DNA of 64,000 bases from the NCBI RefSeq assembly GCF_002081825.1, contig NZ_MUKU01000006.1, forward strand, positions 62,001 through 126,000, given 5' to 3'. Position 1 is the stretch's first letter, and each line of letters opens with the position of its first letter. This document shows positions 4,938 to 57,656 of the stretch, in pieces. Position numbers and translations under genes: made by a program. Below the pieces are notes generated by a model. The model was not told the DNA's origin, ran no database searches, and worked only from the letters and a program-made list of their open reading frames with translations. This DNA is from Chromobacterium haemolyticum. Lineage in GTDB: Bacteria; Pseudomonadota; Gammaproteobacteria; Burkholderiales; Chromobacteriaceae.

Positions 4938-4965
4938 AGAAAAACGGGTGCTAGGCACCCGTTTC
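4938..4965 (-). terminator. Terminator of ffh
   Basis: On the minus strand a stem AAACGGGTGC/GCACCCGTTT is followed by T-rich sequence. It lies between the ffh stop codon and the start of the ATP-grasp gene. Confidence 0.75.
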
Positions 4966-4968
4966 AGC

Positions 4969-6324
4969 TTACATGCCGGGCATCATGCCCTTCATGCCGC
5001 GAAGCATTTTCATCATGCCTCCCTTGGAGGAGAACTGCTTCATCATTTTCTGCGTCTGCTCGAACTGGTTCAGCAGTTTGTTGACTTCCTGCACCGTCAC
5101 GCCGGCGCCGGCGGCGATGCGTCGCTTGCGGCTGGCCTTGAGCAATTCCGGTTTGTGGCGTTCCTGCGGCGTCATTGAATTGATGATGCCTTCGATGCGG
5201 CGCATGGCTTTCTCCGCCTCCGCGCCCTGCACGCCTTTGGCCATTTGGCCCAGTTGCCCGGGCATTTTCTCCAGCAGGTTGCTCATGCCGCCCATTTTTT
5301 TCATCTGCTGCATCTGGGCCTTGAAGTCCTCGAGGTCGAAACCCTTGCCGGATTTCAACTTCTTGGCCATGGCGGCGGCTTCGTCCTGATCGATGCCTTT
5401 TTGCACCTCCTCGATCAGCGACAGCACATCGCCCATGCCCAGAATGCGGCTGGCGATCCGGTCCGGGTGGAAGGGTTCCAGGCCAGACACCTTTTCGCCG
5501 ACGCCGATGAATTTGATCGGCTTGCCGGTGATGTGGCGGACCGACAGCGCGGCGCCGCCTCGGGAGTCGCCGTCCATCTTGGTGAGGATGACGCCGGTCA
5601 GCGGCAGCGCTTCATTGAAAGCCTGGGCGGTGTTGACGGCGTCTTGGCCCTGCATCGCATCGACGACGAACAGGGTTTCCACCGGATTCAGCGCGGCATG
5701 CAGCGCTTTGATCTCGGCCATCATCGCCTCGTCGATGGCCAAACGGCCGGCGGTGTCCACCATCAGGACATCGAAGAAGTGACGCTTGGCGTGATCCACT
5801 GCGGCGCGGGCGATGTCGACGGGATTCTGGTCGCCGGAGGAGGGAAACCATTCGACTTCGACCTGTTGGGCCAGCAGTTTCAATTGTTCGATCGCGGCGG
5901 GACGGTAGATGTCGGCGGAGACGACCAGTACTTTTTTCTTCTGGGTCTCTTTCAACAGCTTGGCGAGTTTGCCCACTGTGGTGGTCTTGCCGGCGCCCTG
6001 CAGGCCGGCCATCAGCACAATGGCGGGGGGCACGGCCGCCAGATTGAGGGCGTCGTTCTTCTCGCCCATTAATTTGGTCAATTCCTCATTGACCACGCCC
6101 ACCAGGGCCTGGCCCGGAGTCAGGCTGCCGGCCACGTCCTGGCCAAGGGCACGTTCCTTGACCTGGGAGATAAAGGTTTTGACCACGGGCAGGGCGACGT
6201 CGGCCTCCAGCAGGGCCATGCGCACTTCGCGCATCGCGTCCTGGATATTGGTCTCGGTCAAGCGCGCATTGCCGCGCAGATTTTTCATCACGCCGGACAG
6301 GCGGCTGGTCAGGTTGTCTAGCAT
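4969..6324 (-). CDS. ffh: Signal recognition particle protein Ffh
   Basis: GTPase subunit of the signal recognition particle, which binds 4.5S RNA and delivers ribosomes making membrane proteins to FtsY. It has 451 residues. The N domain is followed by the G domain with the P-loop GLQGAGKTTT, DTAGRL (G3) and TKMDGDSRGG (G4). The methionine-rich M domain ends in MMKMLRGMKGMMPGM, which forms the signal-peptide groove. The gene is divergent from a YpjD-type membrane protein gene, the same pairing as in many proteobacteria, with 107 bp between the two starts. Confidence 0.97.
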   Translation of the reverse strand: MLDNLTSRLSGVMKNLRGNARLTETNIQDAMREVRMALLEADVALPVVKTFISQVKERALGQDVAGSLTPGQALVGVVNEELTKLMGEKNDALNLAAVPPAIVLMAGLQGAGKTTTVGKLAKLLKETQKKKVLVVSADIYRPAAIEQLKLLAQQVEVEWFPSSGDQNPVDIARAAVDHAKRHFFDVLMVDTAGRLAIDEAMMAEIKALHAALNPVETLFVVDAMQGQDAVNTAQAFNEALPLTGVILTKMDGDSRGGAALSVRHITGKPIKFIGVGEKVSGLEPFHPDRIASRILGMGDVLSLIEEVQKGIDQDEAAAMAKKLKSGKGFDLEDFKAQMQQMKKMGGMSNLLEKMPGQLGQMAKGVQGAEAEKAMRRIEGIINSMTPQERHKPELLKASRKRRIAAGAGVTVQEVNKLLNQFEQTQKMMKQFSSKGGMMKMLRGMKGMMPGM

Positions 6325-10811: not shown

Positions 10812-12518
10812 ATGGAAGCTTCGGCTGGCATTTCCGGCTTGGGTCGGGCCTTGGTGCAAAACAATATGCTGTTGCAGCAGGATGCGGATGCGATCCTGCG
10901 TCAGTCTCAGGCATCGCATATCAGCTTTGTCGAGCAACTGATTCAGAGCAAGAAGATGACGGCGCAGGATGTGGCGATGTTCGCGTCCAAGACCTTTGGC
11001 TATCCCTTGTTGGACATGTCGGCCATCGATCTTGATCAGTTGCCCAAGGGCGTGGTGGATGACGAGCTGATCGCCAGCCGGCGCTTGCTGCCCCTGCTCA
11101 AGCGAGGCAACAAGCTGTATGTCGGCACCTCCGACCCCACCCAGACTTCGGCCTATCACGCCATCACCTTCAAGACCGGGATGACGGTGGAGGTGGTGGT
11201 GGTGGAGGACGATAAGCTGGGCAAGATGCTCGGCAAGTATAGCGAGGACGCCACCGCCGCGATCAAGGCCCTGGAGAACGAGGATTTTGGTGATCTGGAA
11301 TTCGCCGATCCGGATGCGCCGACCGATACCGGCCCACAGCCGGATGTCGACGATGCGCCGGTGGTCAAGTTCATCCATAAGGTGCTGTTGGACGCGATCA
11401 ATGGCGGCGCGTCCGATATCCATTTCGAGCCCTATGAGAAGTTTTACCGCATTCGCTATCGGGTGGACGGGGTGTTGAAGGAGATTTCACAGCCGCCCCT
11501 GGTATTGAAGGAAAAGATCGCCTCCCGGATCAAAGTGATTTCCAAGCTGGATATTTCGGAGAAGCGAGTGCCACAGGATGGCCGGATGAAGCTGGTCATC
11601 TCCAAGGTGCGGGCGATCGACTTCCGGGTCAGCACCTTGCCCACCTTGTACGGTGAGAAGATCGTGATGCGTATCCTGGACTCGTCGGCGGCGAATCTGG
11701 ATATCGAACAGCTGGGTTTCGAGCCGGAGCAGAAGCGCTTGTTGCTGGAGGCGATCGGTCGCCCCTACGGGATGGTGCTGGTGACCGGGCCTACCGGTAG
11801 CGGTAAAACGGTATCGTTGTATACCTGTCTTAATTTGTTGAATAAGCCGGACATTAATATCGCCACGGCGGAGGACCCGGTGGAAATCAACTTGCCGGGC
11901 ATTAACCAGGTCAATGTCAATGAGCGCGCCGGGCTAACTTTCGCCTCGGCCTTGAAGGCTTTTTTGCGGCAGGATCCGGATGTGATCATGGTGGGCGAGA
12001 TCCGGGACTTCGAAACGGCTGACATTGCGATCAAGGCGGCGCAAACCGGCCATATGGTGTTTTCCACCCTGCATACCAATAATGCGCCAGCGACATTGAC
12101 CCGGATGTTGAATATGGGGGTGGCGCCGTTCAATATAGCTAGTTCAGTGCTGCTGATCATGGCGCAGCGCTTGGCGCGCCGTCTGTGCGCGCATTGCAAG
12201 AAGCCGGCGGACATTCCCGAAGAGGCGCTGCTGCGAGCGGGTTTCAAGAAAGAGGAGTTGGACGGCAGTTGGAAGCCCTATGCGCCGGTGGGCTGCGAGG
12301 AGTGCCGCAATACCGGCTATCGCGGCCGTTCCGGCATTTACGAAGTGATGCCGATTACCGATGCGATGACGCGTTTGATCATGCAGAACGGCACCGCCAT
12401 CGATATCGCCGACTTGGCGCGCAAGGAGGGCATGGTGGACTTGCGCCATGCCGGTTTGCTGAAGGTGAAGGCGGGGTTGACGTCGTTGACGGAGATTGAG
12501 GCGGTGACTAACGAGTAA
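10812..12518 (+). CDS. pilB: Type IV pilus extension ATPase PilB
   Basis: Cytoplasmic hexameric ATPase that powers pilus polymerisation. It has 568 residues from ATG 10812. An in-frame GTG at 10797 gives five more residues; the GGTGAG there may instead be the ribosome site. The N-terminal MshE/GspE N domain (residues 1-150) precedes the motor domain with Walker A GPTGSGKT near residue 326, an Asp box, Walker B (DPDVIMVGEIRD) and a His box (GHMVFSTLHTNN). A tetracysteine zinc site follows (CAHC and CEEC). It starts the pilBCD-coaE-zapD-yacG run, although a repeat element splits it from pilC. Confidence 0.96.
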   Translation: MEASAGISGLGRALVQNNMLLQQDADAILRQSQASHISFVEQLIQSKKMTAQDVAMFASKTFGYPLLDMSAIDLDQLPKGVVDDELIASRRLLPLLKRGNKLYVGTSDPTQTSAYHAITFKTGMTVEVVVVEDDKLGKMLGKYSEDATAAIKALENEDFGDLEFADPDAPTDTGPQPDVDDAPVVKFIHKVLLDAINGGASDIHFEPYEKFYRIRYRVDGVLKEISQPPLVLKEKIASRIKVISKLDISEKRVPQDGRMKLVISKVRAIDFRVSTLPTLYGEKIVMRILDSSAANLDIEQLGFEPEQKRLLLEAIGRPYGMVLVTGPTGSGKTVSLYTCLNLLNKPDINIATAEDPVEINLPGINQVNVNERAGLTFASALKAFLRQDPDVIMVGEIRDFETADIAIKAAQTGHMVFSTLHTNNAPATLTRMLNMGVAPFNIASSVLLIMAQRLARRLCAHCKKPADIPEEALLRAGFKKEELDGSWKPYAPVGCEECRNTGYRGRSGIYEVMPITDAMTRLIMQNGTAIDIADLARKEGMVDLRHAGLLKVKAGLTSLTEIEAVTNE

Positions 12519-12660
12519 GAATCTGTTCAATGTCTGCTGCGCTTCAGCAGGATTGTTTAGATAAGGGCGTTGAAACCGACTTCAGAATGCTTATGTAATG
12601 TATGGACACCCAGCTTCTTAAGCCGTTTGCGCTCTTGCTCGCGAGACTTTGAACAGGTTC
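12519..12660. repeat. Inverted-end repeat element, copy 1 (between pilB and pilC)
   Basis: A 142-bp element that begins on the base after the pilB stop codon. Its ends, GAATCTGTTCAATGTCT and AGACTTTGAACAGGTTC, are inverted repeats matching at 15 of 17 positions. Internal blocks (TCTGCTGCGC, GGCGTTGAAA, CTCGCGAGA) are shared with the copy at 57470-57609. It contains no open frame of note. In this position it would be transcribed with pilB and could fold into a long-armed structure in the pilB-pilC message. Confidence 0.75.
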
Positions 12661-12734
12661 TAAGAGCGGTTTTTCACCTCCGGCAGCCGCCGGAACGCTG
12701 ACTTAACGGCTTGGAATAAGAAAGAGGCCATGGA

Positions 12735-25710: not shown

Positions 25711-25792
25711 CCGCTTCGAAGTTCATGTGCTGTGCAGCTAGCTACTTTCTCCCTTTTCTCGCTCTCTGTTCGCGAGACTTTGAACCGGTTCC
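25711..25792. repeat. Inverted-end repeat element, partial copy 2
   Basis: Shares the right-hand part of the element found at 12519-12660 and 57470-57609: CGCTTCGAA, TCATGT, a TTTCTC block and the end CGCGAGACTTTGAACCGGTTC. No matching left arm is visible within 150 bp, so the copy is probably truncated. Confidence 0.55.
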
Positions 25793-56983: not shown

Positions 56984-57469
56984 ATGACCACGCTTTACGA
57001 CTTCACCGCCGCGCGCATAGACGGCAGCGAACAGCCGCTGTCGGCCTACACCGGCCAAGTGACGTTGGTGGTGAATACCGCCAGCGAGTGCGGCTATACC
57101 CGGCAGTACGCCGGCTTGCAGGACTTGCAGCAAGGCTTGGGCGGCCGCGGACTGGCTGTGCTGGGATTCCCTTGCAATCAGTTCGGCGGCCAGGAGCCGG
57201 GCGACGAGGCCGAGATCGAGCGTTTTTGCCGGACGCGCTTCGAGGTGGATTTCCCCATGTTCGCGAAGGTGGAGGTCAACGGGCCGCGGGCTCATCCGCT
57301 GTGGCGCTGGCTGACTCAGGCTGACTCCACCCATCCGCACCCGGTGAAGTGGAACTTCACCAAATTCCTGATTGATGCCAAGGGAAGGGTGGTAAAGCGT
57401 TACGAGCCGGCGGTGGAGCCGCACGAATTGCTGGAGGATATCGAGGCCTTGCTGCCGCGGGGCGGCTGA
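56984..57469 (+). CDS. Glutathione peroxidase (Cys type)
   Basis: Thiol peroxidase of 161 residues reducing hydrogen peroxide and organic hydroperoxides. The peroxidatic Cys36 lies in VNTASECGYTRQYAGLQ. The GFPCNQFGGQEPG motif holds the conserved Gln, and VKWNFTKFLIDAKG the Trp and Asn. Bacterial members of this type often use thioredoxin instead of glutathione. The start at 56984 has a GGAGGTGG ribosome site. An inverted-end repeat element begins on the base after the stop codon. Confidence 0.94.
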   Translation: MTTLYDFTAARIDGSEQPLSAYTGQVTLVVNTASECGYTRQYAGLQDLQQGLGGRGLAVLGFPCNQFGGQEPGDEAEIERFCRTRFEVDFPMFAKVEVNGPRAHPLWRWLTQADSTHPHPVKWNFTKFLIDAKGRVVKRYEPAVEPHELLEDIEALLPRGG

Positions 57470-57609
57470 GAACGTGTTTACGATCTGCTGCGCGTCGGCG
57501 ATACGGCGTTGAAAACGGCTTCGAAATGCTCATGTACCGTGTGTACACTCCGCTTTCTCAGCTGTTTTCGCCTTGTCTCACCTTAGCTCGCGAGATCGTA
57601 AACACGTTC
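57470..57609. repeat. Inverted-end repeat element, copy 3
   Basis: A 140-bp element with perfect 16-bp terminal inverted repeats: GAACGTGTTTACGATC at 57470-57485 and GATCGTAAACACGTTC at 57594-57609. It has no coding capacity. Internal blocks TCTGCTGCGC, GGCGTTGAAA, CATGTA, CGCTTTCTC and GCTCGCGAGA recur in the copies at 12519 and 25711. It begins directly after the stop codon of the peroxidase, as copy 1 does after pilB. Confidence 0.85.
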
Positions 57610-57610
57610 T

Positions 57611-57631
57611 GAGAGACTTTGAACCGGCTCT
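57611..57631. repeat. Extra right end of the repeat beside copy 3
   Basis: GAGAGACTTTGAACCGGCTCT repeats the right-end sequence of copies 1 and 2 (GAGACTTTGAACNGGTTC) directly behind a complete element. It looks like a remnant of an older copy into which, or beside which, copy 3 inserted. Confidence 0.5.
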
Positions 57632-57632
57632 G

Positions 57633-57656
57633 ATGCCCGCCGCTTGCGGCGGGCAT
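57633..57656 (-). terminator. Terminator of trmB
   Basis: Stem ATGCCCGCCG/CGGCGGGCAT just behind the trmB stop codon on the minus strand. Confidence 0.7.

Follow-up and report, generated by a model that had tools for sequence, protein, structure and literature searches.

MITEs, whose definition rests on their ends, are usually viewed as insertion sequences in decay, and the ends of the Correia/NEMIS repeats of Neisseria differ from those of the element analysed here. MITEPsy1 of P. syringae resembles the present element in length (~100–140 bp), lack of a transposase, IS5-family ends and a short TA-centred target duplication, although its ends (GGAAGGTCTGAAAAAGCC) and 4-nt target are different; its transposition has been seen in vivo (PMC3189936). 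ERIC, likewise a palindromic MITE, sometimes lies at the 3' ends of genes (PMC2229807, PMC10969869), but it is 127 bp long with TA termini and other ends (PMC2229807), whereas the present element measures 140 bp and is flanked by TNA. By description, the R0/R2 repeats of P. fluorescens are also comparable, being high-copy, intergenic and bounded by inverted ends identical to those of resident insertion sequences (ISs) (PMC2718517), as are the Correia/NEMIS repeats, high-copy folding MITEs from the same order, Neisseriales, with TA termini unlike the TNA duplication found here (PMC2229807, PMC10969869). The core shared by several such repeats, described below, is absent from the portions drawn on here of a review of bacterial MITEs (PMC10969869) and of accounts of P. 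syringae MITEs (PMC3189936), small mobile sequences (PMC2229807) and P. fluorescens repeats (PMC2718517), and no description of it was found in the open-licence literature.

Copies, target site and past movement

The window, that is, the whole stretch of 64,000 nucleotides of Chromobacterium haemolyticum that was analysed, holds two complete copies of an IS5-type MITE, characterized by its short length, IS-like ends, TNA target duplication and empty orthologous sites. At 140 bp, such elements are too short to encode their own transposase. The features in the window are as follows.

57470–57609, plus strand: copy 3, complete 140-bp element with a type A end (GAACGTG...) on either side
57467–57469, plus strand: left target duplication TGA of copy 3, the stop codon of a glutathione-peroxidase-like gene
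57610–57612, plus strand: right target duplication TGA of copy 3
57504–57577, minus strand: core hairpin of copy 3 (core model R2, E 3.5e-20)
57613–57630, plus strand: right end, belonging to an older B-type element, that directly adjoins copy 3, then TGA at 57631–57633
12519–12660, plus strand: copy 1, complete element of 142 bp, end type B
12516–12518, plus strand: left target duplication TAA of copy 1, the stop codon of a pilB-like gene
12661–12663, plus strand: right target duplication TAA of copy 1
12565–12638, minus strand: diverged core hairpin of copy 1 (core model R2, E 2.4e-6)
25771–25791, plus strand: right end, type B, of what is probably a decayed third copy, left part unrecognisable

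The original prediction had described copies 1 and 3 as a dispersed repeat with inverted ends and common internal blocks, and this was confirmed, the internal blocks matching at 76% over 72 bp (blastn). The ends of copy 3 pair perfectly, as had been claimed, over 17 of 17 positions instead of the 16 bp first given, and those of copy 1, which were correctly said to differ from copy 3's, nevertheless pair at 15 of 17, with mismatches at positions 4 and 13. Inverted ends matching in at least 15 of 16 positions at a 140-bp span occur at a single position in the window, that of copy 3 (17/17). The core model had no match in the probable decayed third copy ending at 25791. Copy 3 has the glutathione-peroxidase-like gene upstream and a convergent trmB on its other side, while copy 1 has the pilB-like gene upstream and a PilC/GspF-family gene next to it, assignments for which three of four queries scored below their curated cut-offs, two of these being deliberately partial. 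Both full copies were also rightly predicted to begin directly after a stop codon (TGA at 57467–57469, TAA at 12516–12518), since the stop codon is the left half of a 3-bp TNA target duplication; a search for target-site duplications accordingly found an identical TNA triplet on both sides of copies 1 and 3.

The element is abundant in its own 5.29-Mb genome. The pattern of TNA plus an element end occurs 122 + 131 = 253 times (reversed control, 0 + 0), a figure that counts ends, often two per copy and including those of ISs, and not copies. A covariance model of the whole element (R1), built from 36 copies, has at least 150 matches at E ≤ 1e-6, and 159 copies were extracted by script, 91 of which are 140 bp long. 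Identical TNA triplets flank 99 of the 159 (TAA 53, TTA 28, TGA 15, TCA 3), and 118 have TNA on both sides. The 99 copies with identical triplets reveal a preference for C-TNA-G as target (C in 67, G in 75). Because the element starts with G and ends with C, each insertion restores C-TNA-G at both borders, and copies can therefore stack end to end. Another element end stands directly behind the duplication at 36 of 316 flanks, as against 34 of 43,514 control positions, and copy 3 is itself a case of stacking, adjoined by the right end of the older B-type element. Separately, a C. alkanivorans contig (L128, about 4959–5240) seemingly carries the element in tandem where the window's genome has a single copy, as judged from alignment blocks overlapping by 140 bp; such an arrangement is expected if insertions restore their target.

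Among copies with identical TNA and sufficient flank, and for reading frames of at least 95 codons, TAA or TGA duplications provide the in-frame stop of a gene in the element's orientation in 42 of 66 cases, and TTA or TCA duplications that of an opposite gene in 12 of 30, compared with 7/66 and 5/31 on control sides where the triplet is no stop. In the window, non-coding TNA is a stop codon at 51 of 601 sites and non-coding C-TNA-G at 8 of 29, a baseline resting on crude scripted gene calls and, for C-TNA-G, on a small sample, and the excess of stop codons is partly due to the choice of C-TNA-G as target. There is a tentative bias in element orientation at stop sites (42 vs 12, p 5e-5), set against 24 vs 18 elsewhere (p 0.44). 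Codirectional gene contexts yielded no significant bias in the window's genome (16 vs 11) or in other genomes (25 vs 18), in a count for which no gene was called on either side of 47 of the 158 own copies, and for this reason the orientation bias was dropped as evidence for an RNA.

Collecting copies with the covariance model, a check that the original prediction had proposed, returned matches in 34 of 61 genomes, the window's own included, with a very uneven distribution within the genus. Empty-site alignments were inspected for five of 19 genus genomes at each window site. The site of copy 3 is unoccupied in three genomes, with a single TGA there in G005 and G002 and a single TAG in G014; in G001 it holds a B-type relic, fuller than the end abutting copy 3 in the window, and in G017 the alignment is ragged and without the element. 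The site of copy 1 is empty in G005 and G014 (one TAA), occupied by a diverged copy in G001, and ragged without the element in G002 and G007. Flank identity is 91–93% for G005 and G014, and, judging from these alignments, the element has evidently moved, both window sites being empty in these two genomes. Copy 1 and the G001 element at the same site are diverged far beyond their flanks, as might follow from replacement or conversion of one of the two.

End types and resident insertion sequences

Three end types were distinguished, namely A (..TTTACGATC), A' (..TTCACGATC) and B (..TTCAAAGTC). When A' is counted as A, the 158 copies that remained after one of 159 was dropped (zero length) comprised 93 AA, 39 BB, 12 AB, 7 BA and 7 other pairs, so that homotypic ends (132/158) far outnumber heterotypic ones (19/158). 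Copy 3 carries GAACGTG at both ends, whereas most A copies normally have it at a single end. Within the AA copies (n = 93), matched double changes were seen at position 10 (10 copies), position 3 (7), position 4 (2) and position 1 (1), with none at the other 13 positions; the 39 BB copies had three in total. A few copies, such as the second copy of L006 and L016, have the same rare change in both arms. On a tree built from the interiors, which took in 150 of the 158 copies, 25 switches of end type were counted for the 132 homotypic copies, where shuffling gave a mean of 34 and a minimum of 27, and this switching implies that ends and interiors reassort.

These counts overturn the argument of the original prediction that changed yet complementary arms signal selection on a fold. 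The arms are instead two types of IS end with little compensation within a type, the scarcity of matched double changes ruling out terminal-arm covariation as proof of folding, and transposase recognition plus exchange between copies suffices for the paired change in the outer arms. The suggested search for a transposase with matching ends was successful, as both A and B types were found on a resident IS5-family element. This element (L071) ends in GAACCTGTTCAAAGTC and GAACGTGTTTACGATC, with a B end on the left and an A end on the right, its transposase matches NF033580, PF13340 and PF01609, and its flanking triplets are unlike (TAA, TTA). Duplication of TNA is the rule for the IS5 branch in question. 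In all, the genome has four matches to PF13340, three of them above the cut-off. Pieces at contig ends include two borders starting GAGCCTGTTCACGATCTTTT, one of them a left border adjoining the transposase reading frame, and we infer that the two belong to one second IS. Three elements of ~370 bp (L336, L337 and L338, on contigs 9, 11 and 22) have A or A' ends around a different interior.

The core hairpin within and beyond the genus

Folding of the whole element gives a long, irregular hairpin, with z values of -6.6 on the plus and -8.0 on the minus strand for copy 3 and of -2.7 for copy 1. Its core, read on the minus strand, is GGAR-N-TTAC-loop-GTAA-N'-TGA with covarying outer stems; the Chromobacterium form is GGAA-T-GTAC...GTAC-A-TGA or near, two letters off the GGAG form seen in Pseudomonas and others. 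An alignment of 36 of 78 own copies contained 94 cells in which both sides of a pair had changed, compared with 35.9 when shuffled and 4–6 when slid, and 14 pairs with such changes compared with 10.9 when shuffled; the structure was derived from the same 36 sequences, which favours it against slides, and came from ribosum scoring, the default scoring of RNAalifold giving a poor consensus (72/78 copies). A second alignment, of 41 core sequences across phyla, had 113 such cells vs 48.3 shuffled and 67/57 slid by one, and a covariation score of 0.292 vs 0.118, with four of the 45 sequences (L131, L135, L136, L169) omitted for an insert or a mismatch-rich stem arm, an omission that favours the structure. 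The number of pairs with both-side changes in this second alignment (11) was not above the shuffled value (10.7). With a tree-based null, implemented as a script in the manner of R-scape that re-places inferred substitutions (245 sequences clustered to 103), the five strongest column pairs were core base pairs, at approximate E-values of 4e-5, 0.0045, 0.0058, 0.035 and 0.22 from a fitted tail over a gapless alignment. The column pairs at ranks 6 to 8, with E of at least 1.7, do not correspond to base pairs, and other pairs of the core, -6/+7 for example, came further down. The GGA/TGA internal loop and a bulge are kept across phyla, some of their bases being fixed by the search pattern. Selection of the core as a folded single strand is thus supported by covariation in the interior (36, 41 and 103 sequences), and the original proposal of such selection holds there and not for the terminal arms.

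Two other readings of the core were rejected. The GGA/TGA loop does not fit the geometry of a kink-turn, with its 3-nt bulge. A coding role was discarded: although, by eye, the plus strand of copy 3 has an open frame running from the core's ATG to the right target duplication, the forms in Pseudomonas and Alistipes carry a GTAA stop region in frame.

A scan of one genome per species for exact matches to the plus-strand centre, AAATGCTCATNTAC-N5-GTANANTCCGCTT, found at least 115 stretches, a sampling in which the pattern bases are invariant by construction and well-conserved sequences are favoured. Among the 80 of 115 stretches listed, isolates belong to Pseudomonas, Chromobacterium, Methylophilus, Undibacterium, Marinospirillum and Vreelandella, and MAGs to Nitrosomonas, Nitrosomonadales and Gallionella; a further 20 are Bacteroidota (Alistipes, other Rikenellaceae including Tidjanibacter, and Lentimicrobiaceae), all of them MAGs and most from ruminant guts. 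Bases beyond those fixed by the pattern are often shared too, the stems commonly being preceded by GCGTT and followed by GCCTTG (107 distinct contexts with enough flank). The inverted ends around the core differ by lineage, comprising GAACCTGTTTACGATC (TNA), CAGGCnGTTGAAAAAC (YTAR), GAAGTTGTCTAACAAG, GGGCnCCTCTAAAAAC, GAGnnTGAATAAAAAG, TTACTGTGTCACA and GAGACCTTTGCACGG; ends were found by script for 84 elements, with rough boundaries and clusters. As far as these sequences indicate, Pseudomonadota and MAGs of Bacteroidota between them enclose the core in no fewer than seven kinds of dissimilar inverted ends.

Of 299 genomes in the phylum, 40 contain the motif GGAGnTTAC-N3-6-GTAAnTGA, the reversed pattern being listed once, and the bases beside TTAC and GTAA, in the places listed, are mostly T-A or C-G pairs. 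Within the phylum, the core model had matches in 38 of 199 genomes. It also matched two Pseudomonas plasmid elements (L344 and L345; E 3e-15 and 5e-11), one element on an aphid-symbiont plasmid (E 3e-8), elements in three genomes of the same class (E 2e-5 to 8e-5) and one Staphylococcus aureus record, in the 16S-23S rRNA spacer (E 1.9e-12). The spacer core lies at 184–254 of L347 on the minus strand, in the rRNA sense orientation. The ends of MITEPsy1 were not found on the two Pseudomonas plasmid elements. In one genome of the same phylum (G175, 2.0 Mb), the short core motif is present 185 times (88 + 97), with no match to the reversed control.

The central motif of ERIC, GGAG-N-TTAC-loop-GTAA-N'-TGA, is that of the core, of which Chromobacterium has a near form. 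It corresponds to the C-G form of the motif, and a 44-nt ERIC centre is present in 5375 of 5426 E. coli genomes. The core model had no match to ERIC with default filters; with filters off, seven loci selected because they carry the motif gave E-values of 4e-4 to 5. ERIC may be a distant branch of the core family. Rfam 15 had no match at the element at the gathering threshold in the window and 10 loci, and at E ≤ 5 in six small loci it had none to a core family, aside from a sub-threshold match of ERIC to V_AS5. The absence of a named family from the original prediction therefore stands as far as Rfam and the open-licence literature go. The match in question, between an E. coli ERIC (L346, 109–232) and RF02818 (V_AS5, Vibrio RNA AS5), scored 46.4 bits against a threshold of 96, which suggests that V_AS5 is ERIC-like; V_AS5 had no match in the window at the gathering threshold.

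Explanations for a core with exchangeable ends

We consider, with a probability of about 0.7, that the element is a MITE moved by IS5-family transposase, in which a conserved folded core is combined with exchanged, transposase-specific ends. IS5-family transposases encoded elsewhere in the genome would bind the ends and move the element, and the two ends would agree because one transposase has to be served by both. Insertion would prefer C-TNA-G, often a stop codon, and with the target restored, copies would stack. The loop sequence and stem pairing of the core would be kept across phyla while the transposon ends are replaced, the core being selected as a folded strand and the unit surviving by gaining ends suited to the transposase available. 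Perhaps, as a guess, the fold makes an insert tolerable or stable in transcripts. A broader proposal, which we hold tentatively and at somewhat below even odds, is that one selfish hairpin lineage, with ERIC as a branch, persists across phyla because its folded core is selected as an undescribed functional motif, its arms being swapped for the IS ends of each host.

It is unlikely that we are dealing with an ordinary IS5-family MITE whose interior is inert filler, recently spread between genera by horizontal transfer and conserved by descent, even though all the usual MITE features are present and pattern-based sampling favours well-conserved sequences. The ends vary by lineage while the core is common to all, the reverse of what is expected of inert filler, the stems change with pairing kept, and the motif is common in the phylum (40/299 genomes; reversed control, 1). 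Equally doubtful is arm-to-arm copying, in which the palindrome folds during replication and one arm templates the other with no selection on the fold. The dominance of homotypic ends (132/158), the rare changes common to both arms of the second copy of L006 and of L016, and the two GAACGTG ends of copy 3, where a usual A copy has one, are all consistent with such copying. However, it should erase mismatches, whereas the GGA/TGA internal loop and bulge persist (some bases being fixed by the pattern), and matched double changes within end types are few. Quite improbable, finally, is that the core serves as a duplex DNA site for a host protein with the hairpin incidental: TTAC...GTAA does form a dyad with conserved flanking bases, but the outer stems vary and yet keep pairing, which a duplex site does not need.

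Where MITEs are concerned, what appears to be novel here, on the evidence of the alignments, is a conserved, covarying core that outlives its ends. Contrary to the usual definition, the ends look changeable and the internal fold constant, across phyla, a pattern suggestive of a small parasite whose core stays the same while its vehicle is exchanged. If true, the exchange of ends around a folded core would link repeats that have been studied separately (ERIC and those of Pseudomonas, Chromobacterium, Nitrosomonas and Bacteroidales), would provide a search model for many unannotated insertions, and would raise the testable question of what recognises the GGAG/TGA hairpin. Insertion at stop codons into a self-restored target would explain both the harmless siting at gene ends and the pile-up of copies.

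As for the strand involved, core pairs read on the plus strand are more often A.C, which is G.U on the minus strand, than G.T (54 vs 21, p 2e-4), while in the alignment of 36 own copies the counts are equal (G.T 57, A.C 57). With the orientation that prevails at stop sites, however, it is the plus strand that enters the mRNA. On balance, the minus strand (GGAG...TGA) is somewhat more likely to act as RNA than as DNA, a weak preference. Folding is lower on the minus strand in 94 of 103 cores and in 126 of 149 own copies.
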